Below are positions 5,287 to 23,760 of a DNA stretch of 23,760 nt, in pieces; position 1 is the first letter of the stretch; every line of letters begins with the position of its first letter. Location: positions 1 to 23,760 of IMG/VR virus record IMGVR_UViG_3300040806_001126; one strand, written 5' to 3'. Origin of the DNA: a virus. Under the pieces are notes generated by a model. That model ran no database searches. It was not told the DNA's origin and worked only from the letters and a program-made list of their open reading frames with translations. A program made the position numbers and the translations under genes.

Positions 5287-5287
5287 A

Positions 5288-7177: not shown

Positions 7178-7194
7178 GGAACTAGGAGCGTAGA

Positions 7195-9294: not shown

Positions 9295-9297
9295 ATA
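9291..9297 (+). promoter_or_regulatory. Possible late promoter box (ATAAATA)
   Basis: ATAAATA overlaps the stop codon of the third fibre gene. If used with T4 late spacing, transcription would begin at about 9303, exactly on the ATG of the next gene, giving a leaderless message. That is unusual, so the box may instead serve genes further downstream or may be fortuitous. Confidence 0.35.
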
Positions 9298-9302
9298 TTG
9301 AT

Positions 9303-9809
9303 ATGAATAGAGTAACGGCACTAGCACAATTTAATAAACTTAATAGAAAATTTACTACTGTTCTTGGGATGGTAGATGATATCTCATTATTAAATAATGA
9401 TTTGTATCTTTATAGACAAATTGATATTGATATTGATCAAGAAAATGTTAGAGGCGATTACGACAACTATACAATATATGATGTAAATGCAACTCCGTTG
9501 ATGACGGAAGATGCACTTAACACTCTAGCAAGAAACAGAATTACAGACAAATATCCTTTAGAAAATCAATTAAGTATCTTAGGAGCAGCGATTGAATCCA
9601 TTGCAGACAATGCTGGTGTTGCAGTAGAAGAGTTAAAAGAAATGAATGACTTTATTACTGAAACTAGACGTGCTAATGGTATTAGAAAAACTTACTTTGC
9701 AGCCAACAGTCAAGTTGATTACAAAACAACAGAAGAAATTGAAGCAGAAATTGCTGAAAAATATGAAGGTGCTATTCAGGAGTATGGTGATGACATACGA
9801 GATATCTAA
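9303..9809 (+). CDS. Possible tail-fibre accessory protein (168 aa)
   Basis: I do not recognise a named domain. The protein is charged and mainly helical in appearance, with a central run (YPLENQLSILGAAIESIADN, then ELKEMNDFITETRRANG) and an acidic C-terminus (TEEIEAEIAEKYEGA). Similar small proteins sit next to fibre genes in marine T4-like phages, and some phage fibre genes are followed by assembly chaperones, so a fibre chaperone or accessory role is possible. This is inferred from position and general composition. The start at 9303 is not well supported: the only upstream AGGA (9288-9291) is 11 bases away and overlaps the ATAAATA box. The next in-frame ATG (9369) has no ribosome binding site either. 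The 3' end overlaps the dioxygenase gene by 20 bases. Confidence 0.65.
   Translation: MNRVTALAQFNKLNRKFTTVLGMVDDISLLNNDLYLYRQIDIDIDQENVRGDYDNYTIYDVNATPLMTEDALNTLARNRITDKYPLENQLSILGAAIESIADNAGVAVEELKEMNDFITETRRANGIRKTYFAANSQVDYKTTEEIEAEIAEKYEGAIQEYGDDIRDI
9779..9782 (+). promoter_or_regulatory. Ribosome binding site deciding the start at 9790
   Basis: GGAG (within CAGGAG) lies seven bases before the ATG at 9790. The alternative ATG at 9784 would be only one base away and the GTG at 9787 only four. The site lies inside the upstream coding sequence, so the two genes are translationally close. Confidence 0.55.
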
Positions 9810-10263
9810 TTACTTGGATAAAGACACAGCAATCAAGGCTAGAGAAGTTGCGGAAAGTCTAGAAGGTCCGAGATGGGTTAAACGTTCTAAACTTACCCCG
9901 CCTAGACAAATTGATGAGTCATCTTGTTCTTATGAATTTTGCGGACATAGACAAATGCCAAAGCATGTTGTTGAATTTTTAAAATCAATTGCTCCTTATT
10001 TTGAAGAGCATAGACTTGCAGAAGTTGCAATTAACAGATATAATGTGGGAGACTACTTAGGGAAACATAGAGATTTCGATTACTATAGAAAAAATTTAGT
10101 AATTGCATTACAAGACAGCGAAGACGGAGTGTTTATAGATGAGGATGATTCATTTGTTAAGGATTCTATCGGACAAGGCATTTGCATTAATGGAATAGGT
10201 CCAGTGCATAGTGTTGCACCAGTTAACAACAAACGATATTCATTAGTATATCTTTACGAGTAG
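9790..10263 (+). CDS. 2-oxoglutarate/Fe(II)-dependent dioxygenase (157 aa)
   Basis: The protein fits a compact 2OG-Fe(II) oxygenase of the prolyl-hydroxylase-like type. The iron ligands are visible as the HRD motif (His93, Asp95) and His140 in GPVHSVAPV. Arg149 in NNKRYSLVYLYE, nine residues after the second histidine, fits the 2-oxoglutarate-binding basic residue. The segment INRYNVGDYLGKHRDFD is typical of the strand leading into the first ligands. Such enzymes hydroxylate proteins, nucleic acids or small molecules using oxygen, iron and 2-oxoglutarate; the substrate here is not shown. The ORF stays open upstream to 9646, but that part lies out of frame over the preceding gene, so I place the start at 9790, guided by GGAG. 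Its position inside a fibre cluster suggests a fibre or other virion protein as substrate, which is an inference. Confidence 0.85.
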   Translation: MTYEISNYLDKDTAIKAREVAESLEGPRWVKRSKLTPPRQIDESSCSYEFCGHRQMPKHVVEFLKSIAPYFEEHRLAEVAINRYNVGDYLGKHRDFDYYRKNLVIALQDSEDGVFIDEDDSFVKDSIGQGICINGIGPVHSVAPVNNKRYSLVYLYE

Positions 10264-10268
10264 GAATT

Positions 10269-10733
10269 ATGGCACATATTTTAAAAACAGCATTAAGCAC
10301 AGACAATTTAACAGCACTTGATACATTAAGATCTAATGTTACCTTTGTGTCCAACAGTATTAGACTAGGTGTGAATAATTACGGAAGTTTAAGCAAATAC
10401 GAATATTCAAAATGGAAAACTTGGAATAGAACACAGCGTTCTACTTTTAAAAATTGTTTTGCAGCAGCAGATATTAATACAGCAGTAATAGGATATTTTT
10501 TAACATTTCCTGCTAATACAGGATTTTTAGACGATATGAATGCTTGGGAAAATGCAACAGCGGCAGGTACTATTGTTGCATATAGTTTAACAAATAACAG
10601 TAATATAACTATAGACGGAACAGCATTAACACTACAACGAGGGCAAGGAGTAGAATTTTCTCTAACTAATAGGCATTCTGTTAGTACAAATGCAGCTCAG
10701 AGCAATTGGGTGTGTCTGATGCTGATGAAGTAA
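10269..10733 (+). CDS. Unknown protein in fibre cluster (154 aa)
   Basis: I do not recognise this protein. The first half looks helical and contains YEYSKWKTWNRTQRSTFKN, rich in aromatic and basic residues. The second half looks beta-rich, with NNSNITIDGTALTLQRGQGV followed by EFSLTNRHSV. There is no signal peptide, membrane segment or metal-binding cluster. It starts five bases after the dioxygenase stop codon, and that stop provides part of an AGGA site at 10262-10265, only three bases before the ATG, so translation probably depends on coupling. The tight link to the dioxygenase and its place between two fibre genes suggest a late virion-related role. It could be a small decoration, adhesin or accessory protein; none of these is demonstrated. 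Confidence 0.65.
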   Translation: MAHILKTALSTDNLTALDTLRSNVTFVSNSIRLGVNNYGSLSKYEYSKWKTWNRTQRSTFKNCFAAADINTAVIGYFLTFPANTGFLDDMNAWENATAAGTIVAYSLTNNSNITIDGTALTLQRGQGVEFSLTNRHSVSTNAAQSNWVCLMLMK

Positions 10734-10738
10734 AAACG

Positions 10739-10745
10739 ATAAATA
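10739..10745 (+). promoter_or_regulatory. T4-like late promoter box (ATAAATA)
   Basis: The box CGATAAATAC lies in a 35-base gap, 23 bases before the ATG of the fourth fibre. Transcription would start near 10751, just ahead of the AGGA ribosome binding site at 10756-10759. The arrangement is complete and well spaced. Confidence 0.65.
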
Positions 10746-10768
10746 CAAGTGAACTAGGAAAAACATAA

Positions 10769-12538
10769 ATGGCATATCAAGTAGACAAATTTAACGGAAC
10801 GTTTTTAACGTCAGTAGCCGACGGAACAATAGATACAACCACGGATTTAAGATTTGTGGGTAAAAATTATGCTGGATATGGTGAAGTTCAAAACGAAAAT
10901 TTCTTACATTTATTAGAAAATTTTGCAAATACTACAAGTCCTCCTAAAGTACTAGAGGGACAAATTTGGTATGATAGCGGAAATAAAAAATTAAAATTTT
11001 ATGACGGAACTAAATTTAAATCAGCGAGTGGCGCAGAAATAAGTGCCAGTGCACCTTCCGGATTAGGAACAGGTGATTTTTGGTGGGACACAGCAGCCAA
11101 GCAGATGTATGCATGGTCAGGCGCAGAATTTGTTTTAATTGGTCCTGAAGCATCACCGGATCTTGGAACAAGTGGTGTTGTTGCACAAGTTGTTAAAGAT
11201 ACTGGTAATACAAATCACTCTATATTAAAAATATTAGCAGGTGGAAAAACTGTAGGCATTGCTTCTCAGACAGCATTCACACTTAATTCAACGACTAACC
11301 CAATTGATGATTTTACAGCAATTAAGAAAGGAATAACGTTAGCAAATACAGACGGCAACGGTATTAGCAGTAATGATTATGTTTATTGGGGTACTTCAAG
11401 TAATGCATTACGACTAGGTGGAATTGAAGCATCAAATTTCTTGCAGAAAGGAAATATTTCGTTCGATGCAGACTATACTGTTTCATTCCCAGATAACGGT
11501 TTTACATTAGGTGACCAAAACGATCTTAGATTCTTCATTGAAAGTGGCGATCAGATTGTTATGGAAAGCCTTACTGGAAATCCAATCAGCATGTATATCA
11601 CTGACGGTGCAACTAGAAACATCTCAGGAGAGTTTACTGTAACTGGATTTAGACCGGGAACTGATAACATTTACAATTTAGGTGAAACTGGCAAAAAATG
11701 GTTGAATGTTTATGCAACAACAGTAGTTGCTAATTTAACTGGTAACGTAACTGGAAACACAACAGGAACTCATACAGGAGATTTATTCTCCAACAGTGCT
11801 CAGAAAATGATTGATGCAGCAGCAGAAGAAATTGGTTATGCTACTGCAACACTAAGAGGAACATTGTTTGGTAACGTTAGTGGTGACTTATCAGGTAATG
11901 CTTCGAACTCTGCATTGTTAACTAGTTTAGCACCTTCGGAAACAGTTCCGGGAGGAGTTGCTTCAATTCCAGTTAGAAGTGCAAGCGGTAATATTATTGC
12001 AACTCAATTTGTTGGTACTGTAGACAAGGCTGATAGATTAAAAATTGATGATACTGCAACAGATAGCGATCCTAATTACAAGAGTGCAAAAACTACACCA
12101 AGTAATAATTCAATTGCTGCTAGAACATCAGCAGGAAACTTGAATGCTAATTTATTCCAAGGAACAGCAACAAGTGCTAGATATGCTGACTTGGCAGAAA
12201 AATATTTAACAGACGACGAGTATGATGCTGGCACAGTGATGTCAGTAGGCGGACTTATGGAAGTAACTGCATCATCAGAAGGCGATAAAGCAATAGGTGT
12301 TATTTCTAAGAGCCCGGCGTTTATGATGAACTCACATTTATCCGGTGGACAGTTTGTTGCCCTTAAAGGAAGAGTTCCTGTAAAAGTTATTGGCACAGTG
12401 GCTAAGGGTGATAGATTAATTGCAGCAGCAGACGGAACTGCAAAAACAGTTTCAGAATCAAATGCTGACGTATTTGCAATAGCACTTGAAGGAAGCGACG
12501 TTACAGAATTAAAATTAATTGAAGCAGTGGTACTTTAA
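10769..12538 (+). CDS. Tail fibre paralogue 4 with RYADLAEKY C-terminal domain
   Basis: This 589-aa protein begins with the shared fibre head (MAYQVDKFNGT, NYAGYGEVQNENFL, GQIWYDSGNKKLKFY, GDFWWDTAAKQMYAW, LIGPEAS). The shaft includes NIYNLGETGKKWLNVYATTV followed by NLTGNVTGNTTG repeats. From residue 471 a distinct domain begins with RYADLAEKY and continues with DAGTVMSVGG, GVISKSPAFMMNS, LKGRVPVKVIG and VAKGDRLIAA. From memory this C-terminal block is common to many phage tail fibres and may be a trimerisation or intramolecular chaperone-like end; I cannot tell whether it is cleaved. The gene has its own late-type promoter box 23 bases upstream and AGGA nine bases before the ATG. The next gene begins two bases after its stop codon. 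Confidence 0.86.
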   Translation: MAYQVDKFNGTFLTSVADGTIDTTTDLRFVGKNYAGYGEVQNENFLHLLENFANTTSPPKVLEGQIWYDSGNKKLKFYDGTKFKSASGAEISASAPSGLGTGDFWWDTAAKQMYAWSGAEFVLIGPEASPDLGTSGVVAQVVKDTGNTNHSILKILAGGKTVGIASQTAFTLNSTTNPIDDFTAIKKGITLANTDGNGISSNDYVYWGTSSNALRLGGIEASNFLQKGNISFDADYTVSFPDNGFTLGDQNDLRFFIESGDQIVMESLTGNPISMYITDGATRNISGEFTVTGFRPGTDNIYNLGETGKKWLNVYATTVVANLTGNVTGNTTGTHTGDLFSNSAQKMIDAAAEEIGYATATLRGTLFGNVSGDLSGNASNSALLTSLAPSETVPGGVASIPVRSASGNIIATQFVGTVDKADRLKIDDTATDSDPNYKSAKTTPSNNSIAARTSAGNLNANLFQGTATSARYADLAEKYLTDDEYDAGTVMSVGGLMEVTASSEGDKAIGVISKSPAFMMNSHLSGGQFVALKGRVPVKVIGTVAKGDRLIAAADGTAKTVSESNADVFAIALEGSDVTELKLIEAVVL

Positions 12539-12540
12539 AA

Positions 12541-13437
12541 ATGGCTGATATTCTTGCAAGCGATGTCAACGCTATTAGAACAAAAATATCTCAAGTACTC
12601 GGAACAGGCGTAGCATCCAAAGGCTATGGACAAACAATTTACAGTAATAATGTTACCGCCGGATCAGAAATTCTAAAATCTCAATGGGATGCATTACGAT
12701 ATGATATCGTTAATGTATTCCAACATCAACAAGGTACTGTACCGGCCATTGCAACAATTACTTTGGGCGATGTTATTACTGATGATGCAGGAGATGCTTT
12801 ACAAAATTTTAATTATTATGCTGATCTTGCATCAGATAATAGATTCGATGTTGCTTCAGGTGAATATAATATTACATCAATTGCAGATGATGATACATCA
12901 TCTTCTTGGAGCAATAGTGCATCAGCAACACTTACAATGACATTTTCAGATTCAGACGAAGCCAGATACTTTTTTAATTCAGGTGGGAAGATTAGAGTAA
13001 CTTCTTCTCTTGCATTAGGTGCATCGCCAACTGCACAATCAAATGCTTGGAACAATATTTTAGCAAGTGTTGGAAGTCAGGATTTTGCTGGAAATTTAAT
13101 AGCCGCAACTGGTTTTTATACATTAACAAACACATACCAAGAATATTATCAATCTTCTATTAGTACCCCTTATTCAGCAAACAATTATCAATTAGCAGCA
13201 AAATGCAATGTTGCTGATAACTCATTAGGTACTGCAACAGAAGTAACTATTCGGGTAACATTAAATGATTCATATGTAGATCCAGGTGCTCCGGCTCCAG
13301 GCGATTTAGTTGAAGGTACATTATCCATAGAATTTGAAGAACTTAAAGCCACTGGAATATTAGAACCAGGCAACATTCCTGGGTCCTTTGCTGTTACATC
13401 TCCTACTTACGTTATGTCTTCCATTATAGTCAGTTAA
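12541..13437 (+). CDS. Putative virion structural protein, paralogue A (298 aa)
   Basis: The protein aligns by eye with the next gene over most of its length. Shared landmarks in order are an N-terminal segment with KISQVLGTGVASKGYGQTIY, WDALRYDIVNVFQHQQG, the motif ARYFFNSGGKIRVTSS, a Trp/Asn stretch (SNAWNNILASVG), an NTYQEYYQSS segment, and a C-terminal LEPGNIPGSFAVTSPTYVMS. From memory the YFFNSGG-type family is found among virion proteins of marine T4-like phages, without a defined function. The protein looks beta-rich, with no enzyme motif and no membrane segment. No clear ribosome binding site precedes the ATG, which is two bases after the fibre stop codon, so translation is probably coupled. 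A fibre or baseplate decoration role is inferred from context. Confidence 0.73.
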   Translation: MADILASDVNAIRTKISQVLGTGVASKGYGQTIYSNNVTAGSEILKSQWDALRYDIVNVFQHQQGTVPAIATITLGDVITDDAGDALQNFNYYADLASDNRFDVASGEYNITSIADDDTSSSWSNSASATLTMTFSDSDEARYFFNSGGKIRVTSSLALGASPTAQSNAWNNILASVGSQDFAGNLIAATGFYTLTNTYQEYYQSSISTPYSANNYQLAAKCNVADNSLGTATEVTIRVTLNDSYVDPGAPAPGDLVEGTLSIEFEELKATGILEPGNIPGSFAVTSPTYVMSSIIVS

Positions 13438-13451
13438 GGGTTTGATAGTCG

Positions 13452-13458
13452 ATAAATA
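13452..13458 (+). promoter_or_regulatory. T4-like late promoter box (ATAAATA)
   Basis: CGATAAATAG lies in the 36-base gap between the two paralogous structural genes. Transcription would begin near 13464, where a GAGG ribosome binding site (13464-13467) precedes the ATG by six bases. The leader would be very short. Confidence 0.6.
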
Positions 13459-13473
13459 GTTTTGAGGTAAAAT

Positions 13474-14472
13474 ATGGCAGGTGTAAACCAAAAAATAGAC
13501 AAAGATGACTTTAATGATATTCAGTCTAAAATTGAAAATGTATTAGGAACAGGTTCCGGACAATCTGGGTATGGACAGCCAGTATTAAGTGAACCAGTCA
13601 CTGTCTCGGACACAGTAACTATCAATGAATATGCTGCATTACGTTTTGATATTATTAATGCTTATCGGCATTTATTTAATGGTGCTCCTAGTGGAGTCGA
13701 CGATCAAACGTTAGGCACATCTATTCGATATAGCCTATCAGATGCTCCTATTAATTATTGGTTAACGATTACTAATTCAATCGTAACAAATAAAGGATCA
13801 GCAGCAGTTTCCGGACAAAGAAGAACTGTTAATCATGGAACGGAATCAGAAACATGGCCAGGAGCACTCGGAACAAATTGGTCGGATGCATTGTACGCTA
13901 CGGTTACTGTAGAATTTACTAATTCAGAATTCGCAAGATACTTTTTTAATGCAGGTGGCAGCATAGATTTTACATCGACTAGGACTGGCGGATCCTCTAC
14001 TAATCAAAATGCATCATGGACTTCATTATTAAGTACAGCAGGAACTAGATCATTTGGCGGAAACTTTCCCGGTACAGGAGTAAACCCAAATGACGGATCA
14101 AACTATTTTAGATTAAACAATACTAATCAAACTTGGAGCACGGTAACTGCTTCATCTCCTTACGCTCTTAATAGTTGGAGAATTACGGCTGCAACCAACG
14201 ACAGTCCTTCAGTTACTGATAATTCCGCTGGATCTTCGAGAAAACTTATATTCCGGCTTGAATGGATTGATGATCACTTTCCGTTGGGCGGAGACTCGGA
14301 AACAGGAACTCCAGTTCAACCAGGAACATTTGGTCCTGATGTTGTTGACGGATCAATAGCATATACGGTGATCACTACAGAACCCACTGGCGTATTAGAA
14401 CCATCAGGAGCAGGAAATTTCACAGTAGAATCCCCAACTGTAACAATTTCTCCAATTCGGCAATCGCCATAA
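13474..14472 (+). CDS. Putative virion structural protein, paralogue B (332 aa)
   Basis: This is the second member of the pair. It keeps the same landmarks as its upstream neighbour: KIENVLGTGSGQSGYGQPVL, YAALRFDIINAYRHLFNG, ARYFFNAGGSIDFTSTRTGG, NASWTSLLSTAGTRSFGGNF, LNNTNQTWSTVTASSPY and LEPSGAGNFTVESPTVTIS. It is 34 residues longer; much of the extra length appears to lie in the middle (around GVNPNDGSNYFRL) and in the segment before the C-terminal LEP motif (FPLGGDSETGTPVQPGTF). It has its own promoter box at 13452 and a GAGG site, whereas its paralogue has neither, so the two may be made in different amounts. The structural role is inferred from family and position. Confidence 0.74.
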   Translation: MAGVNQKIDKDDFNDIQSKIENVLGTGSGQSGYGQPVLSEPVTVSDTVTINEYAALRFDIINAYRHLFNGAPSGVDDQTLGTSIRYSLSDAPINYWLTITNSIVTNKGSAAVSGQRRTVNHGTESETWPGALGTNWSDALYATVTVEFTNSEFARYFFNAGGSIDFTSTRTGGSSTNQNASWTSLLSTAGTRSFGGNFPGTGVNPNDGSNYFRLNNTNQTWSTVTASSPYALNSWRITAATNDSPSVTDNSAGSSRKLIFRLEWIDDHFPLGGDSETGTPVQPGTFGPDVVDGSIAYTVITTEPTGVLEPSGAGNFTVESPTVTISPIRQSP

Positions 14473-14497
14473 ATCTTGTTTTCCTTCTCAAGTAGTA

Positions 14498-14504
14498 ATA
14501 AATA
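14498..14504 (+). promoter_or_regulatory. T4-like late promoter box heading the modification cassette
   Basis: TAATAAATATAA lies in the 60-base gap at 14473-14532, the longest non-coding gap in the window. Transcription would start near 14510, ahead of AGGAGG at 14523-14528. No other ATAAATA box was seen downstream, so this may drive the whole string of genes to the window end. A five-base inverted repeat (AGTAG at 14491, CTACT at 14512) flanks it and is probably chance. Confidence 0.6.
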
Positions 14505-14522
14505 TAATATGCTACTATAACC

Positions 14523-14528
14523 AGGAGG
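14523..14528 (+). promoter_or_regulatory. Strong ribosome binding site (AGGAGG)
   Basis: AGGAGG lies four bases before the ATG at 14533. It is among the best matches to the anti-Shine-Dalgarno sequence in the window and marks the start of the cassette. Confidence 0.7.
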
Positions 14529-14532
14529 TATT

Positions 14533-14883
14533 ATGCAAGAAGAATTTAAAAAAGCACTGGATTTTTCAAATTACAGACAAACTTTTTCAATCCAAAGAAA
14601 AACACTTAAAGAAAATATTGAAGCCAAATTAACATATGGTGTTAATGGGGGTATCTTTAAAATTGATAGATCATTATTAAATTTTGTAGAAATGCTAATT
14701 TTTAGATCTAGAGCAGAAAATGTTGTATTGCTTGATGTTAATGATACACCAATATTAATAGAAAATTTAGTTGTGTTCAAAGAAGAAATTTTTGATAGAT
14801 ATTTTACTGCCACACTAGAATATCACGAAGAATATCAAAAATTAAAGAAAAGCCGTTCCATAGAATCATTATTGGAATCATAA
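14533..14883 (+). CDS. Small conserved marine-phage protein (116 aa)
   Basis: The protein has FKKALDFSNYRQTFSIQRKT, then KLTYGVNGGIFKIDRSLLNF, then ENVVLLDVNDTPILIENL, and a charged, probably helical end (EEYQKLKKSRSIESLLES). From memory a similar short protein is widespread in marine T4-like phages, with no known function. It has no cysteine pair, signal peptide or membrane segment. It is the first gene after the late-type promoter box at 14498, has the strong AGGAGG site, and ends one base before the first glycosyltransferase gene. Being first in the string does not show that it takes part in glycosylation; it may be a structural or scaffolding protein that happens to lead the transcript. 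Confidence 0.75.
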   Translation: MQEEFKKALDFSNYRQTFSIQRKTLKENIEAKLTYGVNGGIFKIDRSLLNFVEMLIFRSRAENVVLLDVNDTPILIENLVVFKEEIFDRYFTATLEYHEEYQKLKKSRSIESLLES

Positions 14884-14884
14884 A

Positions 14885-15748
14885 ATGAAAAAAGGAATTG
14901 TACTTTTTGCGCACAACAATAGACAGATTGATTACGTTAAGATGTCTATCATATCTGCAAAACTAGCCAAGAAAAATCTAGGAGTACCTGTGAGCTTAAT
15001 TACAGATCCTTCAACTGTGGAATGGATGAAAGAGTCTAATATTTTTGAAGTAGCATCAACAGTATTTGAAAATATTATTATTACACAACGTCCAGATGAT
15101 GAAAATACAAGAGTAATATTTGACGGAACAGCAAAAATTTCCTCCCCGTTTAAGAATGCTAACCGTAATTCAGTATGGGACTTAACCCCCTATGATAGAA
15201 CACTACTTCTTGATACTGATTACTTTGTACTTGGTAATAGTTTAAATGAATACTGGGATGTTGACAGTGACATACTGATTGCAGAAAGTTATAATGATAT
15301 ATTTGGACAGGAACGTACTGGATATTTGGATAAGCATGTATCAGAAACAGGAGTTAAGATGTTATGGGCTACTACGGTAATGTTTACTAAAAATGAAAAT
15401 ACTAAATTATTCTTCAATCTAGTAGAACACATTAGACAAAATTATAAACAATTTGCAGATTTGTTTAGATTTAATAGTTCTATTTACAGAAATGATATTG
15501 CATTCAGTGTAGCAAGACATATCATGTACGGTTTCGAAACAGACAAAGATTATTCATTACCACCGGTTTTATCAGTTACAGATAAAGATTATTTGTATGA
15601 TATTGATAATAACGGAAATTTAATTTTTTTAGTTTCTCCAAAGTTGGACGGAACTTATTGTGCAGCAAAGATAAACAACAATGATATACATATAATGAAT
15701 AAACAAAGCATTTCAAGAAACACTGATAAACTAATGGAGTTAGCATGA
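14885..15748 (+). CDS. GT-A type glycosyltransferase 1 (DTD motif)
   Basis: This 287-aa protein fits a GT-A fold nucleotide-sugar transferase. It opens with KGIVLFAHNNRQIDYVKMS, a beta-alpha unit of the kind that binds the nucleotide. It reaches the metal-binding motif in YDRTLLLDTDYFVLGNS, with DTD at residues 110-112. The overall layout recalls GT8-like enzymes, but donor and acceptor cannot be read from the sequence. There is no membrane segment, so it should act in the cytoplasm. No clear Shine-Dalgarno site precedes the ATG (only TTGGAA about ten bases upstream), and the gene starts one base after the preceding stop, so coupling is likely. It overlaps the next gene by ATGA. The second transferase downstream has the same architecture and is probably a distant paralogue. 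Confidence 0.78.
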   Translation: MKKGIVLFAHNNRQIDYVKMSIISAKLAKKNLGVPVSLITDPSTVEWMKESNIFEVASTVFENIIITQRPDDENTRVIFDGTAKISSPFKNANRNSVWDLTPYDRTLLLDTDYFVLGNSLNEYWDVDSDILIAESYNDIFGQERTGYLDKHVSETGVKMLWATTVMFTKNENTKLFFNLVEHIRQNYKQFADLFRFNSSIYRNDIAFSVARHIMYGFETDKDYSLPPVLSVTDKDYLYDIDNNGNLIFLVSPKLDGTYCAAKINNNDIHIMNKQSISRNTDKLMELA

Positions 15749-16587
15749 ACTTTGGTTATTTAATAATTGTATCTGACGAAGAAACAAGTAACTATGCTAG
15801 ATTAGCATATGCTCTAGCACTTAGTATTAAGAACACACAGAAAGAAGGGTATGATAAAGTAGCACTTGTAATAAATGATAAGGAAAAAGTAAAAGATTTT
15901 AATTCAACCTGGGTGTTCGATCATATCATAGAATGGGATAAGGAAAAACATTGGGATGGAAGATCTCATATGGACGAACTCACGCCATTTGATTGTACAG
16001 TATGTCTTGATGCAGATATGTTATTTCTTAGAGATTACAGTCATTGGGCAGAATACTTTATTGAAAACTGTGAACTATATGTTGCAAATAAATCTTTTAC
16101 CTATAGAGGAGATGTTGTAACAAATGATTATTATAGAAAATGTTTTACAGCAAATGATTTACCTAATTTATATTCCTTTTATACATTTTTTGTTAAAAAC
16201 AGTCCTTTGGCAACAGAATTCTTTAATTTGCAAAGAGCAATAATAAAAAACCCTATAGAATTTTCTAATAATTTTTTAGAAAAACATAAGCCAAAAGTAG
16301 TCGGAACAGACGAAGCATTTGCACTGGCTGCAAAAATTTTAGATATTAAAAATGAAATTGCTTATCCTTTAGAGTTTCCACGTGTTGTACATTTGAAAGG
16401 CATGATACAAGATTGGCCGCACCCGGCTGAAACTGTTACTGATCATGTTGGATTTTACTTTAACACTCAAGGTAAATTAAAGATTGGAAATTATCAACAA
16501 AATGACATCATGCATTATGTTGAAAAGGATAGAGTAACATTAGAAACAATTAACATATTGGAGGAGATAGCATGGAAGAAAAAATAA
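15745..16587 (+). CDS. GT-A type glycosyltransferase 2 (DAD motif)
   Basis: The 280-aa product starts with FGYLIIVSDEETSNYARLAY, followed by a Rossmann-like stretch (KVALVINDKEKVKDF) and the metal-binding motif FDCTVCLDADMLFLRD, with DAD at residues 89-91. Later segments VGTDEAFALAAKIL and PRVVHLKGMIQDWPHP fit the acceptor side of a GT-A enzyme, where a distal histidine often helps bind metal. It resembles the preceding protein in architecture. The start is supported by GGAG five bases upstream and by ATGA overlap with the previous stop codon. It is soluble, with no targeting signal. Two adjacent enzymes of this type could add successive sugars, but the sugars and target are unknown. Confidence 0.78.
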   Translation: MNFGYLIIVSDEETSNYARLAYALALSIKNTQKEGYDKVALVINDKEKVKDFNSTWVFDHIIEWDKEKHWDGRSHMDELTPFDCTVCLDADMLFLRDYSHWAEYFIENCELYVANKSFTYRGDVVTNDYYRKCFTANDLPNLYSFYTFFVKNSPLATEFFNLQRAIIKNPIEFSNNFLEKHKPKVVGTDEAFALAAKILDIKNEIAYPLEFPRVVHLKGMIQDWPHPAETVTDHVGFYFNTQGKLKIGNYQQNDIMHYVEKDRVTLETINILEEIAWKKK

Positions 16588-17213
16588 CACTCCCAGACTT
16601 TGATGAATGGCTAGAAAATTATAAACCAAGGGAAATAAAGTATAATGCTGCCTTTAATGCTGATACAGGAAAAATATTAACAGTAGGTCCTGATCATACA
16701 GTTACTAATAAAGCATATAAGAATATTATTAATGTTTCTAATGAAGTTGCTGAAGATATAATTAGTGGCAAGATTAGAATGAGCAAATGTTTTGTTGATG
16801 CTGCACTAGGCGAATTAGAAATTACAGAGGTTAAAGATCTTTATAGTATTGACGATGTACTACATAGAATCATAGAAAAGAAATGGTCAGAAGTTGAAAA
16901 GCCTGATATTTTCTTAACATATAATAAATCCAAAGGTTTGTTAACAGTTAGTTTGTCAGAGGAGTTTGGCGGAACACATAAACTAGATAAAAAGTTTCAT
17001 CCTATAACAAAAAGAAAAATATTCTGGGACGGCCAAACTGAATTAAATTTTAGCATAACCGATTATAACGATCCTCATATTGTTTATAAGAATATTGGTG
17101 TTACTATATCAGAGTTAAATGGAAAAGCAGTTGCTATTTCTGTAGACTGTCCTGAAAAGTTTAGTGTCTACACTAAAAGATTATTTAAAAATTATGTAAT
17201 AGAGGTAGTATGA
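16572..17213 (+). CDS. Unknown protein inside the glycosyltransferase cluster (213 aa)
   Basis: I do not recognise this family. The first half contains LPDFDEWLENYKPREIKYNA, NADTGKILTVGPDH and a helical stretch ending in SIDDVLHRIIEKKWSEVEKP. The second half looks beta-rich (GLLTVSLSEEFGGTHKL, TELNFSITDYNDPHIVY, VTISELNGKAVAISVD), as in small sandwich domains. It has only two cysteines and no DxD, HxD or radical SAM motif, so an enzymatic role is not visible. GGAGGAG five bases before the ATG is strong, and the start overlaps the previous gene by 16 bases; the end overlaps the next gene by ATGA. Enclosed between transferase genes, it could be a substrate, adaptor or virion protein modified by its neighbours. 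That is speculation from position. Confidence 0.7.
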   Translation: MEEKITLPDFDEWLENYKPREIKYNAAFNADTGKILTVGPDHTVTNKAYKNIINVSNEVAEDIISGKIRMSKCFVDAALGELEITEVKDLYSIDDVLHRIIEKKWSEVEKPDIFLTYNKSKGLLTVSLSEEFGGTHKLDKKFHPITKRKIFWDGQTELNFSITDYNDPHIVYKNIGVTISELNGKAVAISVDCPEKFSVYTKRLFKNYVIEVV

Positions 17214-18118
17214 AAGTAGTAGAGTTTGATGTATTTTTTCTGAGCTACGACGAGCCAACAGCAGATTTGCATTATGCTGATCTATGCAACAAGGTTCCTT
17301 GGGCAAAAAGAATACACGGTGTAAAGGGTTCGGATCATGCACACAAGGCAGCGGCAGAACAATCAGAAACTGATTGGTTTCTTTCAGTAGATGCTGATAA
17401 CATAGTATATCCTAGTTTCTTTGATATTGATCTCGATATGAGCAATAAAGAAATACGTGCATACAGTTGGTGCGGAAAGAATAATGTTAACGGATTGCGT
17501 TATGGTAACGGCGGATTAAAGTTGTGGAATAAACAACATGTTCTTGATATGAAAACTCATGAGAATTCTGAAAGTGAAAGAGCCCAAGTAGATTTTTGTT
17601 GGGAAACAGGATATAGAAACTTTCCTAGAACATACAGCGACAGTATAATTAATTCTTCGCCCTTCATGGCATGGCGTGCAGGATTCCGCGAAGGAGTCAA
17701 GATGACTCTAATGGATGGACTAAAGGTTCCGCCGCAAGAAATTAAAAATAAAATATGGTGGCATAATATACATAGACTTACGCAATGGAGTACGGTTGGA
17801 AGTCATGTAGAAAATGGATTGTTTACAGTTTATGGCGCAAGATTAGGAACTTATCTCACAAATTGTACGGATTGGGATCACATACAGGTTAGAGACTTTG
17901 AATCTCTTCGTGAATTGTATGACGAACAATGTAAACTGTATGAAGAGGATGGGGTTGGTTTAGAACAGGAAGTCAAGCGTTTAGGAAGTGAACTTAAGAA
18001 TCAACTAGGATTTAACTATCCTTACATGGATGCATCGATGAGCAAATACGTGTTAGACTTATATGAACAAACTATTGAATTAGGAAATACATATTATAGG
18101 AATCCAAATGATCTATGA
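17210..18118 (+). CDS. Glycosyltransferase-like protein, marine phage family (DAD motif)
   Basis: The 302-aa protein begins with FDVFFLSYDEPTADLHYADL, continues with PWAKRIHGVKGSDHAHKAAA and reaches TDWFLSVDADNIVYPSF, with DAD at residues 61-63. This is the layout of a GT-A core: first strand, ribose-binding helix, then the DxD strand. Further on, YGNGGLKLWNKQHVLDM and SSPFMAWRAGFREGVKM are shared in form with the next gene. From memory this family recurs in marine myoviruses, often labelled glycosyltransferase, without biochemical proof. The C-terminal 60 residues are helical and charged. The start has AGAGG four bases upstream and overlaps the previous gene by ATGA; the end overlaps the next gene by 11 bases. 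Confidence 0.73.
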   Translation: MKVVEFDVFFLSYDEPTADLHYADLCNKVPWAKRIHGVKGSDHAHKAAAEQSETDWFLSVDADNIVYPSFFDIDLDMSNKEIRAYSWCGKNNVNGLRYGNGGLKLWNKQHVLDMKTHENSESERAQVDFCWETGYRNFPRTYSDSIINSSPFMAWRAGFREGVKMTLMDGLKVPPQEIKNKIWWHNIHRLTQWSTVGSHVENGLFTVYGARLGTYLTNCTDWDHIQVRDFESLRELYDEQCKLYEEDGVGLEQEVKRLGSELKNQLGFNYPYMDASMSKYVLDLYEQTIELGNTYYRNPNDL

Positions 18119-19136
18119 TTTGTTTTATGTTAGCCAAGGTGAAGCAGAACACTGGTTAGAATTCAAGTCTAGGTTTCCTAATGCTCAATTGATTGAAAAC
18201 ATTGAATCTTTAGATCAAATAAAACAAAAGACATTAACCAGAATGTTCTGGGTGGTGTGGGATGATGTAAAAGTAAGAGATGATTTTGATTTTGAATATC
18301 GTGCCACTAAGTGGGACTTAGAATATGTTCACGTATTTAAGAACGGCAATCACTTCAACGGTGTTACACTTATGCCTAAAAATGCTCCAGCATCCAATAA
18401 AGAATTTAAGTTTCGATTTTTTATCAACAAGAAAGAAATAGATATAGTAGCCAGCGATCCTAGACGTATAGGAAGTAGTTTTGATATTGTGTTTATTTCT
18501 TATTACGAGCCGCATGCAGACGACAATTGGCAAAGACTAAAAAGTAGATTTCCAAGAGCAAAACGAATTTCAAACATTAAAGGAATCCACCAAGCACACC
18601 TAGAAGCAGCAAAGATTGTCGAAAGCGAAATGTTTTGGGTAGTAGATGGTGATGCACAGATAGTTGAAGAATTTAATTTTGATTATCAAGATCCAGAAAT
18701 TTATACTGTACACGTATGGCGTAGTGTTAATCCGGTCAATGGATTAGAGTACGGCTATGGAGGTGTAAAATTATTGCCAACACAGATGACACTAGATATG
18801 GATATGTCTAAACCAGATATGACTACTAGTATTAGTAATAAATTTAAAGCCGTAGAAGAACGTTCTAACGTAACAGCATTTAACACAGGACCGTTCGAAA
18901 CTTGGAAAAGTGCATTTAGAGAATGTGTAAAATTAAGTAGTAAAGTAATTGACAGACAAAATGAAGACGAAACAAATGCAAGACTTAAGGTGTGGACAAC
19001 ACATGCACAAGGAGAATTCGGCGAGTATGCAATTCAAGGTGCAAATGCTGGTATGAAGTTTGGACTTTCTAATGATAACGATCTCAGTTTAATAAATGAC
19101 TTTGAATGGTTACAGGATCAATTTGATGCAAGATAA
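18108..19136 (+). CDS. Internally duplicated glycosyltransferase-like protein
   Basis: This 342-aa protein is related to its upstream neighbour and contains two copies of the GT-A-like core. Copy B (about residues 125-224) has FDIVFISYYEPHADDNWQRL, KSRFPRAKRISNIKGIHQAH and MFWVVDGDAQI, with DGD at 180-182. Copy A (about residues 3-91) keeps the same frame (YDLFYVSQGEAEHW, KSRFPNAQLIENIESL, MFWVVWDDVKV), but WDD at 51-53 replaces DGD and the helix after the first strand is altered. Copy A therefore probably lost metal binding and may act in folding or acceptor binding. The C-terminal part has GPFETWKSAFRECVKL, matching a motif in the neighbour. AGGA six bases before the ATG supports the start. 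Confidence 0.74.
   Translation: MIYDLFYVSQGEAEHWLEFKSRFPNAQLIENIESLDQIKQKTLTRMFWVVWDDVKVRDDFDFEYRATKWDLEYVHVFKNGNHFNGVTLMPKNAPASNKEFKFRFFINKKEIDIVASDPRRIGSSFDIVFISYYEPHADDNWQRLKSRFPRAKRISNIKGIHQAHLEAAKIVESEMFWVVDGDAQIVEEFNFDYQDPEIYTVHVWRSVNPVNGLEYGYGGVKLLPTQMTLDMDMSKPDMTTSISNKFKAVEERSNVTAFNTGPFETWKSAFRECVKLSSKVIDRQNEDETNARLKVWTTHAQGEFGEYAIQGANAGMKFGLSNDNDLSLINDFEWLQDQFDAR
18114..18380 (+). repeat. Degenerate core copy A within duplicated transferase-like gene
   Basis: This encodes residues 3-91 and matches the segment at 18480-18779 in order and spacing of landmarks: KSRFP, NI, MFWVV, DF-FEY, VHVF and FNGV. The acidic metal-binding triplet has changed to WDD. Confidence 0.72.
18480..18779 (+). 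repeat. Intact core copy B within duplicated transferase-like gene
   Basis: This encodes residues 125-224 and keeps the DGD triplet and the YGYGGVKLLP segment that is also present, as YGNGGLKLWN, in the upstream gene. Confidence 0.75.
19114..19117 (+). promoter_or_regulatory. Ribosome binding site deciding the start at 19126
   Basis: AGGA lies eight bases before the ATG at 19126. The earlier in-frame ATG at 19096 has no such site and would lengthen the overlap with the upstream gene from 11 to 41 bases. Confidence 0.5.
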
Positions 19137-20490
19137 AGAAAGAATACAGAGCTTTGAACCCATGATGGATGCAATATCGCCAACCTTCTGCATGGCTAAG
19201 TGGCATCACACAACTATCTACTTAGGAACGGGCGAAACACACAGTTGTTATCATCCTGCTCCTCACAAAATTCCGCTGGAGGGACTTGAAGAAAATCCTA
19301 GTCTATTGCATAATACACCTCAAAAGAAAGCCGAAAGGCAGGCTATGATTAACGGAGAGAAACCCAGCGGATGCCAATACTGTTGGAATATAGAATGCAT
19401 GGGCAAGGATTATATTTCAGATAGAAAAGAAAGGAACGCCAGCATACACACACCAGAACGTTTTGATGCAATTAAACAAGATCCAATGGCAGATGTTAAT
19501 CCACAATATATAGAAGTTAGTTTTGGTAATGAATGTAACTTTAAGTGCGGTTATTGTCATCCTAAACATTCTAGCAGTTATTATAAGGAAATTGAAAAGG
19601 AAGGTCCGTATACTATGGTTAAAAACCATAGGAACGATATTGATTGGTTTGAAATACACAAGGATGAAGAAACTAATCCGTATGTAAAGGCTTGGTGGAA
19701 ATGGTGGCCCGAATTGCGTAAGACGCTAACCATTTTAAGAATAACGGGTGGCGAACCATTACTACAACAAAGCACATGGCGCATGTTTGATGAATTAGAA
19801 AAGAATCCATGTCCTAACCTAGAACTTAATATTAATACTAATCTAGGTGTCAAGCCAATTCTTATTGAACGCTTTACAGACAAAGTAAACAGTTTGGTAA
19901 ACAAAGGATGCATTAAGGACTTTAAAGTTTTTACAAGCATGGACACTTGGGGACCGCAGGCAGAATACATTAGAACAGGATTAGATTTAGAACTATGGGA
20001 AAAGAATCTAGACACATACATGACTAAGACTAACATGCCATTGACGTTTATGATTACATTTAACATCTTAACTGTGACTAATTTCAGCAAACTGCTTGAA
20101 AAGATTCTCGAATGGCGTGTAAAGTATAACAGTGATGATCAGACCAAGTGGCAAAGAATTAGATTCGATTCGCCATACCTAAAGGAACCACTACAGTATG
20201 ACATGAACATTCTTCCTAAGGACAAATTCGTTCCATACATGGAACAGCATCTACAGTTTATAAAGGATAACTTGGATGATATGGATAGGCACAAATTTAG
20301 TGTGCTTGAATACGAAAAATTTCGCCGAGTGGTTGACTACATGACAACAACACACTACACACCTGAACGTGTAGCAGAAGGAAGACGTGATTTTCATAAT
20401 TGGTTTACTGAGTATGACAGAAGAAGAGACTTAAATTTTGTAAAAACATTTCCTGAATTGGAGGAGTTTTATTTTGACTGTGCCCAGTAA
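19126..20490 (+). CDS. Radical SAM enzyme 1 with N-terminal auxiliary-cluster cysteines
   Basis: The product (454 aa from ATG 19126) has the radical SAM signature C-x3-C-x2-C in GNECNFKCGYCHP (Cys137, 141, 144), followed by the ITGGEPLL motif (GGEP at 208-211) that contacts S-adenosylmethionine. Before this core lie five cysteines: C22, C41, and C83, C86 and C91 in SGCQYCWNIECMG. This spacing resembles SPASM/twitch domains, which hold an extra 4Fe-4S cluster, but here it precedes the core instead of following it. Similar phage proteins are, to my memory, labelled twitch-domain radical SAM proteins. The enzyme should use a reduced 4Fe-4S cluster to make a 5'-deoxyadenosyl radical; the substrate is unknown. 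SPASM/twitch relatives often modify peptides, proteins or sugars. The gene overlaps the previous one by 11 bases and the next by 17. Confidence 0.86.
   Translation: MQDKERIQSFEPMMDAISPTFCMAKWHHTTIYLGTGETHSCYHPAPHKIPLEGLEENPSLLHNTPQKKAERQAMINGEKPSGCQYCWNIECMGKDYISDRKERNASIHTPERFDAIKQDPMADVNPQYIEVSFGNECNFKCGYCHPKHSSSYYKEIEKEGPYTMVKNHRNDIDWFEIHKDEETNPYVKAWWKWWPELRKTLTILRITGGEPLLQQSTWRMFDELEKNPCPNLELNINTNLGVKPILIERFTDKVNSLVNKGCIKDFKVFTSMDTWGPQAEYIRTGLDLELWEKNLDTYMTKTNMPLTFMITFNILTVTNFSKLLEKILEWRVKYNSDDQTKWQRIRFDSPYLKEPLQYDMNILPKDKFVPYMEQHLQFIKDNLDDMDRHKFSVLEYEKFRRVVDYMTTTHYTPERVAEGRRDFHNWFTEYDRRRDLNFVKTFPELEEFYFDCAQ
20460..20466 (+). promoter_or_regulatory. Ribosome binding site supporting a TTG start at 20474
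   Basis: GGAGGAG lies seven bases before TTG at 20474, an optimal distance, while the in-frame GTG at 20480 would be 13 bases away. The site lies inside the upstream radical SAM gene. Confidence 0.6.
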
Positions 20491-21676
20491 TACTTTTTGT
20501 ATACTACCATGGTTGCACATGTATGTAAATCCAGACGGATCAGTACTGCCTTGTTGTGTTGGTGAGATAAACGAGCCTTTAGGTAACGTAAGATTAAACA
20601 CAATTAAAGAAATTTGGAACGACACTCCTTATAAGCATATGCGTAAAAACATGCTCGAAGGTAAACGCTGTGTAGAATGTCAAGCATGCTATAATATGGA
20701 GGACGGCGGCGCCGAAAGTCCAAGAATACATGCTAATAGTAATCCATACTACGGTGATACCACAGGGTTACTAGCACATACAGAAGCCGATGGAACATTA
20801 CCGGTAATGCATCTTAAACACTTCGATGTACGTTGGAGTAATATTTGTAATTTTAAGTGTCGCAGTTGTAGTAGTACGTATTCTAGTACATGGGCGCAAG
20901 AAGATAATTCAACAAAGTTTGCACCTGAGAAACCTATCTTTATTTTAGCAGATGGAAACGACAACGATAAGTTATATAACCAATTCCTTCCACACTTTAA
21001 AGACATTGAAACCTTTTATTTTGCAGGCGGCGAACCTTTACTTACAGACAAGCACTATGATATACTAGAACACCTTATTTCAATAGGTAAAACAAGTGTG
21101 AAGTTAGAGTATAATAGTAACTGTAGTGTGCTAAAATACAAGTCTAAGAGTGTCTTAGAGCTATGGAAACACTTTGATACTGTACATATAGGTGCAAGTC
21201 TAGATCATTATGGTAGTAAAGCAGAATACATTAGATCCGGTACGGATTGGAATTTAATTAAAAGTAATATACAAAAGATAAAACAAGAATGTCCTCATAT
21301 TAAAATACAAAGTAATACAGTTGTTAGTGTTTTTAACTTATATACATTAACAGACATTCTTGATTATATGCTAGAACAAGACTTGTTTAATATTAACGAT
21401 TATTTTCCACAGATGTATAACATACAATATCCAGAGTATTATACAGCATCAGTATTAGACGATCAGTTTAAAAAAGAAATTATCGAAAAGATACAAAGCA
21501 AAAAATATAATAAGCATATTGATGATATGCTGAACGGTGTTGTAAATTACATAAACAATTCTAAGTTTAACGAAAATACTAGACAACAATTTAAAAATCA
21601 TACACAACATTATGATTTTATTAGAAACGAAAACTTCGTAGAAACATTTCCTGAGCTGGAAAGGTTAACAAAATGA
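20474..21676 (+). CDS. Radical SAM enzyme 2 with N-terminal SPASM-like domain
   Basis: The 400-aa product starts with a SPASM-like segment: FCILPWLHMYVNPDGSVLPC then C, GNVRLNTIKEIWND, and RCVECQACY, giving cysteines at 9, 27, 28, 66, 69 and 72. In canonical SPASM proteins this block is C-terminal; here it comes first. The radical SAM motif is ICNFKCRSC (C125, 129, 132, spacing x3 and x2), followed by FAGGEPLL (GGEP at 185-188). Its FVETFPELE ending matches the FVKTFPELE near the end of the upstream enzyme, so the two are paralogues. Translation appears to begin at TTG, as GGAGGAG is seven bases upstream; GTG at 20480 is the alternative. It overlaps the previous gene by 17 bases and the next by ATGA. 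The two may act in sequence or on related substrates. Confidence 0.87.
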   Translation: MTVPSNTFCILPWLHMYVNPDGSVLPCCVGEINEPLGNVRLNTIKEIWNDTPYKHMRKNMLEGKRCVECQACYNMEDGGAESPRIHANSNPYYGDTTGLLAHTEADGTLPVMHLKHFDVRWSNICNFKCRSCSSTYSSTWAQEDNSTKFAPEKPIFILADGNDNDKLYNQFLPHFKDIETFYFAGGEPLLTDKHYDILEHLISIGKTSVKLEYNSNCSVLKYKSKSVLELWKHFDTVHIGASLDHYGSKAEYIRSGTDWNLIKSNIQKIKQECPHIKIQSNTVVSVFNLYTLTDILDYMLEQDLFNINDYFPQMYNIQYPEYYTASVLDDQFKKEIIEKIQSKKYNKHIDDMLNGVVNYINNSKFNENTRQQFKNHTQHYDFIRNENFVETFPELERLTK

Positions 21677-22899
21677 AAATATATTTTGATACACTAACAA
21701 ACAATGATAGTAATCAAAACAATTTAACGTTTAATGGTGATAATGATTATTGGTTAGTTGCTCCTGGAGCGCCGATCAAACAAAAATGCTTAGAAATGCA
21801 GTTAGATGTTGCTGAGTCTACAAACGTTAACGAAAATGGTATATATTTTGTGGACGTAAGAGGCGACCCTCAATGGTGGGCAGGAGTGTTAACAGACTCA
21901 GGAACTCCTCACAAACACATTCTACGGTGCTTACCTAAACAAATTATAAAATTAGCAAAACAAAAACAAATAAGATTAGTAATAAATGCTGATAGAGAAG
22001 GTGGCCCTATGGTTACACAGCATTGGGATTGCTTTCTATCAACACATACTGCAATGGTTGAACTAGGATTGCCCAAGGACAGCGTTCTAATACTACAGGG
22101 TAACAAGAAGATAGAATTACAATATGATAAATGGCTCAATGATACAGGTGTTGATGAGTTGTATGATGTAATGTATAGCAATCACTTTGGAAACATATTC
22201 GGAGATAATAAATTACCCACTACCCCTGTAATAAAATACGCAATGGAAAATCCCGACAGCAAGGATTACAACAGTCTTAACAGAGTTTATCGTCCACATC
22301 GAGGTGCACACTTATATAGGTTAATGAAGGATGCACATTTAGATAAGGGAATAGTTAGCGGCAACGAAATAAATTTGCAAGACACTGACACTGAAATGCT
22401 TGTAGGTGATTACTCGGATATAACCGATCAGTTTCCTAAATTTATAGATGGAGACTGGAGCAATACAAATGCAGCCAACCAATACAATGTGGATATCTAT
22501 AAGAATAGTTTACTAAGTGTAATTACAGAAACTATATTTCTTGATAACGTAGCATTTATAACAGAAAAAATATTTAAACCTATCACAATGGGTCACCCAC
22601 TCATACTATTTGCTAGCCAAGGAACACTAAGATGTCTAGAGGAGATGGGGTTTAGAACGGACTGGTGTGGAATAGATCCTGCATATAATGATATAGAGGA
22701 TAATCTAGAACGATTTAATGCTACACAACAAGCATTATATGATTGGATAGAGTTATCAGAGACTCACAAGATTGCAAGATTAGAAAAGAGTATGGACACT
22801 ATACAGCACAATTTTGATCTAATAAGGAGTAGTGACTTCTATGCGGATGCAATTAGAGAAGCGGTTGCCAGAACGGAGAAGTATTATGAAACCGTTTAA
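21673..22899 (+). CDS. Probable GT-B type glycosyltransferase (fucosyltransferase-like motif)
   Basis: This 408-aa protein contains AFITEKIFKPITMGHPLILF near residues 294-313. The TEK-IF-P-MG-P-I pattern resembles the donor-binding C-terminal domain of GT10-type fucosyltransferases and related GT-B enzymes, where the TEK lysine and following helix bind the nucleotide-sugar. Upstream segments (KQIRLVINADREGGPM, DSVLILQGNKKIELQYDKW) look like an N-terminal Rossmann-like half. There is no DxD strand of the GT-A kind as in the earlier genes. No signal peptide or membrane segment is visible. GGAAAGG eight bases before the ATG and ATGA overlap support the start. The family call rests on one motif and general layout, so the donor sugar is not assigned. 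Confidence 0.62.
   Translation: MKIYFDTLTNNDSNQNNLTFNGDNDYWLVAPGAPIKQKCLEMQLDVAESTNVNENGIYFVDVRGDPQWWAGVLTDSGTPHKHILRCLPKQIIKLAKQKQIRLVINADREGGPMVTQHWDCFLSTHTAMVELGLPKDSVLILQGNKKIELQYDKWLNDTGVDELYDVMYSNHFGNIFGDNKLPTTPVIKYAMENPDSKDYNSLNRVYRPHRGAHLYRLMKDAHLDKGIVSGNEINLQDTDTEMLVGDYSDITDQFPKFIDGDWSNTNAANQYNVDIYKNSLLSVITETIFLDNVAFITEKIFKPITMGHPLILFASQGTLRCLEEMGFRTDWCGIDPAYNDIEDNLERFNATQQALYDWIELSETHKIARLEKSMDTIQHNFDLIRSSDFYADAIREAVARTEKYYETV
22875..22878 (+). promoter_or_regulatory. Ribosome binding site deciding the start at 22886
   Basis: GGAG lies seven bases before the ATG at 22886. An earlier in-frame ATG at 22832 would add 18 mostly basic residues inside the overlap and would leave the hydrolase block I strand far from the N-terminus. 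Confidence 0.55.
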
Positions 22900-23653
22900 T
22901 CAATACAAGAGATTATTTGTCTTTGGATGTAGTATGACAAATTACGAATGGCCAACCTGGGCAGATATATTATCTCAAGAAATTCCAGAGTATTACAATT
23001 ATGGAAAAAGCGGTGGTGGTAACTTATTCATAGCCAACAGCATTGTGGAAGCAAACCTCACGCACAAATTCACAGAAGATGATTTGGTTATTGTAATGTG
23101 GAGCAGCGTCAGCAGGGAGGATAGATATAAAAATAACAGATGGGAAACACCGGGAAACATATACACCCAAGGCGTGATAGACATGGAGTTCGTACATAAG
23201 TGGGCAGATGATAGATTCTATCTTATGAGAGATCTAGGATTGGTTGAACAGACTAGAGTTTATCTTGAAAACCTTCCTTGCGATTCGGACATGCTAAAGA
23301 TGGTAGACTTTGAGGAAACAAAGATGTCCGACAACATGAAAGGAAATCATCTAGAGGATATATTAAAACTATATTCTTCAACACTCGAATGTGTGAAACC
23401 TGCAGTAGTTGATATAGTATATAAAGGAGTTTGGCCTCAGACTCCGATACGAGGATGGGGAGGCAATGGACAAACAGCAGACTATCATCCGACTCCTATA
23501 GGACACTACAAGTACCTTGAAAACCTATATCCTAATCTTGTTACAGAAAAAATGAAGTTGTATGCAGAAAAATATGAAACTTTAATTAGAGGTATTTCAA
23601 GTCTTGACGAAACACAAAAGTTTTGGTCTGTTAACAATGTTAGGAGATTATAG
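22886..23653 (+). CDS. SGNH/GDSL-type hydrolase-like protein
   Basis: The 255-aa product starts with KRLFVFGCSMTNYEWPTWAD, a block I motif with the candidate nucleophile Ser16. Next comes YNYGKSGGGNLFIANSI (residues 37-53), matching the block II glycine and block III-like region, and then DDLVIVMWSS. Near the end, TADYHPTPIGHYKYL holds Asp199 and His201, a D-x-H version of the usual D-x-x-H block V, with His207 nearby. SGNH enzymes remove or transfer acyl groups, often acetyl groups on sugars. The altered spacing in block V leaves activity uncertain. No signal peptide is present, so it should act in the cytoplasm or on the virion. The start at 22886 has GGAG seven bases upstream and overlaps the previous gene by 14 bases. 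The context points to glycan acylation or deacylation. Confidence 0.75.
   Translation: MKPFNQYKRLFVFGCSMTNYEWPTWADILSQEIPEYYNYGKSGGGNLFIANSIVEANLTHKFTEDDLVIVMWSSVSREDRYKNNRWETPGNIYTQGVIDMEFVHKWADDRFYLMRDLGLVEQTRVYLENLPCDSDMLKMVDFEETKMSDNMKGNHLEDILKLYSSTLECVKPAVVDIVYKGVWPQTPIRGWGGNGQTADYHPTPIGHYKYLENLYPNLVTEKMKLYAEKYETLIRGISSLDETQKFWSVNNVRRL
23641..23646 (+). promoter_or_regulatory. Ribosome binding site for GTG start at 23653
   Basis: TAGGAG lies six bases before the GTG at 23653, inside the end of the hydrolase gene. Confidence 0.55.
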
Positions 23654-23760
23654 TGGCGTGTATTAACAGTGATAATTTGCTATATGTAAAGTCATACAGC
23701 ATACATGATAAGGAAGTTATAAAGATAGAACCTAATGTTGGTTTTCTCGCTAAACAAAAT
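23653..23760 (+). CDS. Start of next cassette gene, 3' partial, GTG start
   Basis: GTG at 23653 overlaps the last base of the hydrolase stop codon and has TAGGAG six bases upstream. The frame stays open for all 36 codons to the window end, giving (M)ACINSDNLLYVKSYS, then IHDKEVIKIEPNVGFLAKQN. Too little is present to identify the protein. Its one-base overlap fits the tight coupling of the cassette, so it is probably another member of the same transcript. Confidence 0.6.
   Translation, partial: MACINSDNLLYVKSYSIHDKEVIKIEPNVGFLAKQN

Follow-up and report, generated by a model that had tools for sequence, protein, structure and literature searches.

The virus record IMGVR_UViG_3300040806_001126 of IMG/VR was analysed over its entire length of 23,760 bases (the window). 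Behind a block of fibre-type genes it carries a string of 11 genes on the + strand, ten of them complete (g1 to g10) and the last (g11) cut by the window end, in which putative glycosyltransferases stand together with two radical S-adenosylmethionine (SAM) enzymes. An earlier note, made from the letters alone, had described a late-expressed string of ten modification genes with mostly overlapping junctions. The count has to be raised to 11, and all junctions are indeed overlaps (1-17 nt), the sole exception being a gap of 1 nt between g1 and g2. Coordinates given below for g1 to g11 depend on our own choice of start codons. The first core gene, g1 (14533-14883), encodes a conserved protein of 116 residues with no family match; g4 (16572-17213) encodes 213 residues with no family match above cut-off.

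Four products of the string contain a DxD-type motif. The aspartates are invariant in 90 diverse aligned rows of g2 (14885-15748) and in 90 of g5 (17210-18118, VDADN), and are present in 89-90 of 90 rows of g3 (15745-16587, DAD); DAD or DGD was found in 123 of 127 relatives of g6 (18108-19136). Profile-profile comparison shows g2 and g3 to be relatives (match 96.9%, E 1.8e-10), and likewise g5 and g6, whose profiles cross-match at about 1e-19 to 1e-39. The g6 product is a g5 paralogue with one or more extra N-terminal repeat units. Its length varies through these units, from 342 residues in the window to 546 in the relative L024 (L024:7008-8645), which looks like several rounds of duplication of the first domain. 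No Pfam family matched g2, g3, g5 or g6, and PDB sequence-profile searches of g3, g5, g9 and g10 gave no match. The AlphaFold2 (AF2) model of g5 had a predicted local distance difference test (pLDDT) value of 47 and was confident solely in an N-terminal part of alternating strands and helices. Because of this poor model and the lack of a Pfam match, the assignment of the four proteins as putative GT-A-like transferases draws on motif and context. The GT-A motifs reported in the earlier note are thus conserved, while the name GT-A applies to these proteins by motif only.

The next two genes, g7 (19123-20490) and g8 (20474-21676), encode twitch domain-containing radical SAM enzymes. Both match the family NF033640 over their full length, with 315 bits for g7 and 378.7 bits for g8 against a curated NCBIfam cut-off of 170 bits. 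The CxxxCxxC motif is kept in 140/140 relatives of g7 and in 123/123 of g8. Auxiliary cysteines are found in the N-terminal parts (C23, C42, C84, C87 and C92 in g7; C9, C27, C66, C69 and C72 in g8), as the earlier note had seen, and the N-terminal domain of g8 is similar to the auxiliary-cluster part of BtrN (E 0.013). No protein of the region is better conserved than the g7 product, whose median identity to its relatives is 84.8%. In nine large records, 35 twitch radical SAM genes score over the cut-off, and 34 of them follow g3 at a distance of up to about 45 kb, six of these counting only if one 307-kb contig is wrapped; in these records they are not mostly in unrelated contexts, a situation which the earlier note had regarded as damaging to its reading. 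In two records for which no wrapping is needed, 10 of 11 and 7 of 7 such genes are no more than 40 kb away (binomial P 4e-8 and 2e-7), values that describe position and not independent events, tandem paralogy adding to the clustering. Up to about 14 matches to NF033640 occur per genome, clustered behind fibre genes. Among phage records, g7 and g8 gave only distant tblastn matches, nearly all in Vibrio phages; in bacterial genomes NF033640 gave 0/289 at E 1e-30, a weak negative since the controls were equally silent. A QueE-like radical SAM gene (L024:20069-21103, − strand) is found in L024 some 9 kb downstream from g8, in the orientation opposite to it, which suggests that 7-deazaguanine chemistry may occur in these phages.

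The rear of the string consists of g9 (21673-22899), g10 (22886-23653) and the truncated g11 (23653-23760), whose GTG start overlaps the g10 stop. The AF2 model of g9 (pLDDT 86) found as best Foldseek matches the GT-B enzymes SdgB, UrdGT2 and OtsA (E 1.7e-5), and GT-B structures of the WaaG and PglA types were also matched. The best of these, the protein glycosyltransferase SdgB, shares 13% identity with g9 at a whole-chain template modelling (TM) score of about 0.3-0.36, a resemblance of fold only. By its model g9 is, at modest TM, a glycosyltransferase of the GT-B fold with its two Rossmann-like domains, in line with the single GT-B-like product of the earlier note. A g9-related protein among viral models bears the name UDP-glucose/GDP-mannose dehydrogenase and is probably a g9-like domain fused to a UDP-sugar dehydrogenase. 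The g11 product is a GT-B-like paralogue of g9 (profile match 99.8%). In g10, SGNH-hydrolase-like by motif only, a block I-like GCSxT is present in 43/43 relatives and a block V-like DYHP in 30/43; the canonical block III GxND was not seen and no family profile matched, so that the SGNH blocks previously read in this product stand as motifs but without a family behind them.

The earlier note had also found no genes for nucleotide-sugar synthesis. This is true of the window, but not of the DNA just past its edge. A contig (L003/L130) that is 99.94% identical to the window over 18992-23760 carries the complete g11, followed by a UDP-sugar dehydrogenase and an SGNH-like gene, and the UDP-sugar dehydrogenase of a relative passes the Pfam cut-offs for the central and NAD-binding domains. 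A nucleotide-sugar enzyme of one of three alternative types lies at most 9.5 kb downstream of g5 in 32 of 66 loci.

The string is preceded by a T4-type late promoter box, AATAAATA, at 14497-14504 (+ strand). The window has five copies of the late box variant RATAAATA on its + strand and none on the − strand; a gene start follows each copy after 13-36 nt, and g1 to g10 have no copy inside them. A scan of the window for TATAAATA with one mismatch showed no enrichment (67 found, 80 expected), and this count was rejected as a promoter signal; the signal lies in the position and conservation of RATAAATA. Among distinct genes of the relatives, ATAAATA stands ahead of f9 in 75/89, f11 in 27/65 and g1 in 48/117 (for g1 within 60 nt upstream), with none in control stretches, and it is conserved in aligned stretches upstream of g1. 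In contrast, it was found before none of the 122-147 copies each of g2, g3, g5, g6, g7 and g8. Since the box precedes f9, f11 and g1 and never the later genes checked, these appear to be transcribed behind a fibre or a g1 promoter; where g1 has no box, read-through from fibre promoters would be the simplest reading. Scans for sigma-70 promoters and terminators stayed at or below chance level. By this pattern, g1 to g11 can be classed as a predicted T4-type late transcription unit, as the earlier note had supposed from one box.

To see how the genes are inherited, IMG/VR was scanned with g5 and g7, which gave 390, at least 590 and at least 599 confirmed stretches; the best 80 of each scan were examined, and the counts are not a census. 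The synteny set comprised 142 distinct g5 loci, very divergent ones included, and the denominators below are the loci with enough flank. Upstream of g5, g3 is present in 102/104 loci, g2 in 97/99 and g1 (within 5.5 kb) in 93/95. The fibre-type genes are found there too, f10/f11 within 7 kb in 76/83 and f9 within 9 kb in 51/61. In close relatives the order from f9, f10 and f11 through g1 to g7 is identical, and the block f9-f10/f11-g1-g2-g3-g5 is nearly fixed across very divergent carriers, g5 being the most widespread core gene; g3 has exactly one copy in each of the nine large records. Ranked by identity, g7 comes first, then g5, g3 and g1, all above f9 (64%) and f10/f11 (46-49%). On the other hand, g4 is lost or strongly diverged in distant lineages. 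Downstream of g5, a radical SAM gene lies within 6 kb in 61/85 loci and a GT-B-like gene follows in 38/66. The rear occurs in several variants: a UDP-sugar dehydrogenase type, an SDR (short-chain dehydrogenase/reductase) epimerase with another GT-B-like gene, RmlB with a 2-oxoglutarate (2OG) oxygenase and SGNH genes, or an additional SGNH-like gene that stands between g7 and g8. In L098 and L099, both from sample 3300027788, g1 to g7 are closely alike and the rear modules after g7 are wholly different, a natural swap. These results bear out the earlier proposal of a single late-expressed string of modification enzymes, with a core that is co-inherited and does not occur as independent genes; conservation of gene order holds for g1-g2-g3-g5, but not for the rear, which swaps.

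Bases 1-14472 are filled with genes for baseplate- or fibre-type proteins. Directly upstream of g1 lies f11 (13474-14472), a virion-type protein with its own late box at 13451, and the fibre-type f9 and f10 (10769-13437) head the conserved block. The f9 product matches a tail fibre PHROG and has an N-terminal module in common with f3, f4 and f5, all four matching tail or virion PHROGs; f1 carries a T7 tail-fibre N-terminal domain and f3 a collar domain. Within this block, f7 (9766-10263) is 2OG-Fe(II) oxygenase-like (HxD...H motif, weak Pfam match) and is found in some relatives, not in others. It could perhaps hydroxylate fibre residues.

The carriers are T4-like, often jumbo (giant), mostly marine and uncultivated phages, and T4-type capsid gp23 is encoded by 7 of 8 large ones. 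Judged by f2, a structural protein, the carriers stand closest among cultured phages to Sinorhizobium phage Phosso and Agrobacterium phage Atu_ph07 (54-55% identity); the second of these has been placed near the Rak2-like phages (PMC6102473). When g2, g3, g5 and g9 were searched by tblastn in 50,697 phage records, no match was found. Two contigs of a metagenome-assembled genome (MAG) binned as a Neomarinimicrobiota bacterium, PBPT01000016.1 (L125, 335 kb) and PBPT01000082.1 (L127, 153 kb), carry the fibre/cassette block. A bacterial origin was rejected for L125, since two contigs of its MAG encode T4-type gp23 next to fibre genes; the bin contains phage sequence. A Rhodobacteraceae MAG has, on a contig of 21 kb (JAESRG010000036.1), a lone g5 homologue (30% identity) without other cassette genes. 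Across 299 genomes the g5 profile matched only the already known MAG.

Taken together, the gene content points to sugars, and the promoter pattern and synteny point to late action alongside the fibres. We consider that there is an even chance that the string is a late, fibre-linked module for glycan building and radical SAM tailoring which acts on virion (fibre) proteins. Its transcription would be late, together with that of the fibre genes or directly behind them, and it would act in the cytoplasm of the dying host. The donors may be nucleoside diphosphate sugars drawn from host pools and from phage enzymes (the UDP-sugar dehydrogenase encoded after g11 and, in relatives, an SDR epimerase or RmlB). 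With these, g2, g3, g5 and g6 would attach a conserved sugar core to a virion protein, with the fibre-type f9 to f11 the likeliest candidates and f11 a possible acceptor. The radical SAM enzymes g7 and g8 might then alter the sugar structure or the peptide site by oxidation, epimerisation or cross-linking, and the variable rear (GT-B g9 and g11, SGNH-like g10) would add lineage-specific outer groups. The fuller proposal, that radical SAM enzymes rewrite sugars or side chains of the phages' own fibre proteins once these have been glycosylated, in a pathway whose core is fixed and whose outer part can be swapped, and that this is widespread in uncultivated marine T4-like and jumbo phages, is put forward tentatively and well below an even chance.

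Several points weigh against virion glycosylation. The GT-A assignment is motif-based and the model of g5 is poor; half of the loci with room have no recognised nucleotide-sugar enzyme, and in 24 of 85 no radical SAM gene could be recognised at a distance of up to 6 kb from g5. The substrate, the acceptor and the radical chemistry named above are proposals. UDP-sugar dehydrogenase, RmlB and epimerases are equally typical of lipopolysaccharide (LPS) and O-antigen pathways, and the linkage to fibres could be positional only.

The strongest rival is modification of the host surface, in which late remodelling of LPS or O-chains would block superinfection or the loss of progeny on debris. This was proposed in the literature for pelagimyophage host-recognition clusters with similar gene sets (PMC7029224), and it agrees with the O-antigen-type sugar-nucleotide genes and with the WaaG- and PglA-type matches of g9. 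However, no hydropathy peak of g1 to g10 is membrane-segment-like (maximum KD19 1.48), and no flippase or polymerase was seen in the string, which suits a cytosolic protein acceptor. The hallmarks of a Gtr-type O-antigen cassette, a membrane-bound flippase and a bactoprenol transferase, were likewise not found in g1 to g10, and nor was any other membrane-bound transferase, which argues against a classical O-antigen cassette. Besides, the promoter is of the late rather than the early type and the coupling to fibre genes is conserved. Because of gene content, late promoter with synteny, and the lack of membrane-type proteins, decoration of the virion is favoured, at about an even balance, and the host surface appears a rather improbable target.

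Modification of proteins or peptides without an assembled glycan, with radical SAM enzymes acting on fibre side chains and transferases adding single groups, is unlikely. SPASM/twitch radical SAM enzymes often modify peptides, and rhizobiophage relatives have, at the same genomic position, peptide-maturase-like radical SAM enzymes beside a protein with a conserved Cys/His tail. The recurring nucleotide-sugar enzymes, however, point to sugars, and the marine cassettes showed no conspicuous Cys-rich protein of precursor type. A radical SAM cassette for ribosomally synthesised and post-translationally modified peptides would have a short precursor peptide next to the maturase; among plausible genes in frames of at least 100 residues no Cys-rich C-terminal tail was found, though such precursors need not be Cys-rich. 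Hypermodification of DNA or RNA bases (glycosylated bases, deazaguanine chemistry) is very improbable, for although some phages glycosylate their DNA and L024 has the QueE-like gene, that gene is separate and on the opposite strand, and the string sits in a late fibre block without base-precursor enzymes. Equally doubtful is a loose collection of auxiliary genes held together by position alone; the rear is exchanged freely, but the order of the core is nearly fixed over large divergence and g7, g5, g3 and g1 are more conserved than the adjoining fibres.

If virion glycosylation is correct, abundant marine T4-like and jumbo phages would build glycans on their own adsorption structures and rework them by radical chemistry, using enzyme families that had neither a curated model nor a cultured-phage match in the searches made. 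Such a chemistry would go further than the plain addition of sugars in decorating particles and diversifying fibres. It would also provide a function for the radical SAM genes of marine T4-like phages, which are so far unexplained, and two undescribed transferase families would be added. So far as the open-licence literature was searched, which is weak evidence of absence, the fixed core families, the co-transcription pattern, the layout of core and variable rear and the clustering of radical SAM paralogues behind the core are new; the same literature gave nothing directly useful on precedents for phage virion glycosylation.

With regard to known systems, the radical SAM genes of Vibrio phage KVP40 are distant g8 homologues (24% identity) which sit among genes of nucleotide metabolism and NAD, not behind fibre genes. 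The cassettes of the cultured jumbo phages Atu_ph07 and Phosso occupy the same position behind fibre genes and contain several radical SAM genes, but differ in having SPASM peptide-maturase-like enzymes and a cupin/JmjC protein; homologues of g2, g3, g5 and g6 were looked for in them and none was recognisable. Atu_ph07 gp170 (L123:25062-25952) and its Phosso homologue (L124:24345-25265) are 38% identical overall with nearly identical tails, CHSSCHASCHNSRSRR and CHTSCHASCHSSRSRR, and adjoin radical SAM/SPASM genes whose best NCBIfam matches are the peptide maturases DynA, PapB and DarE. This looks like a phage-encoded peptide-modification cassette behind the fibre genes of cultured phages. The earlier note knew of no described phage pathway with such a combination. 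It is not unprecedented, however: pelagimyophages have glycosyltransferases, UDP-glucose 6-dehydrogenase and radical SAM cassettes in their fibre region (PMC7029224), and 12 radical SAM genes were published for one T4-like marine genome (PMC5332604). The pelagimyophage/cyanomyophage host recognition cluster is like the present cassette in belonging to T4-like marine phages, in its place in the fibre region and in the kinds of enzymes (PMC7029224). It was described, however, as hypervariable and typed as GT8, whereas the core found here is fixed and made up of GT-A-like families that no Pfam model matches, in carriers that by f2 are akin to the Rak2/Atu_ph07 group.

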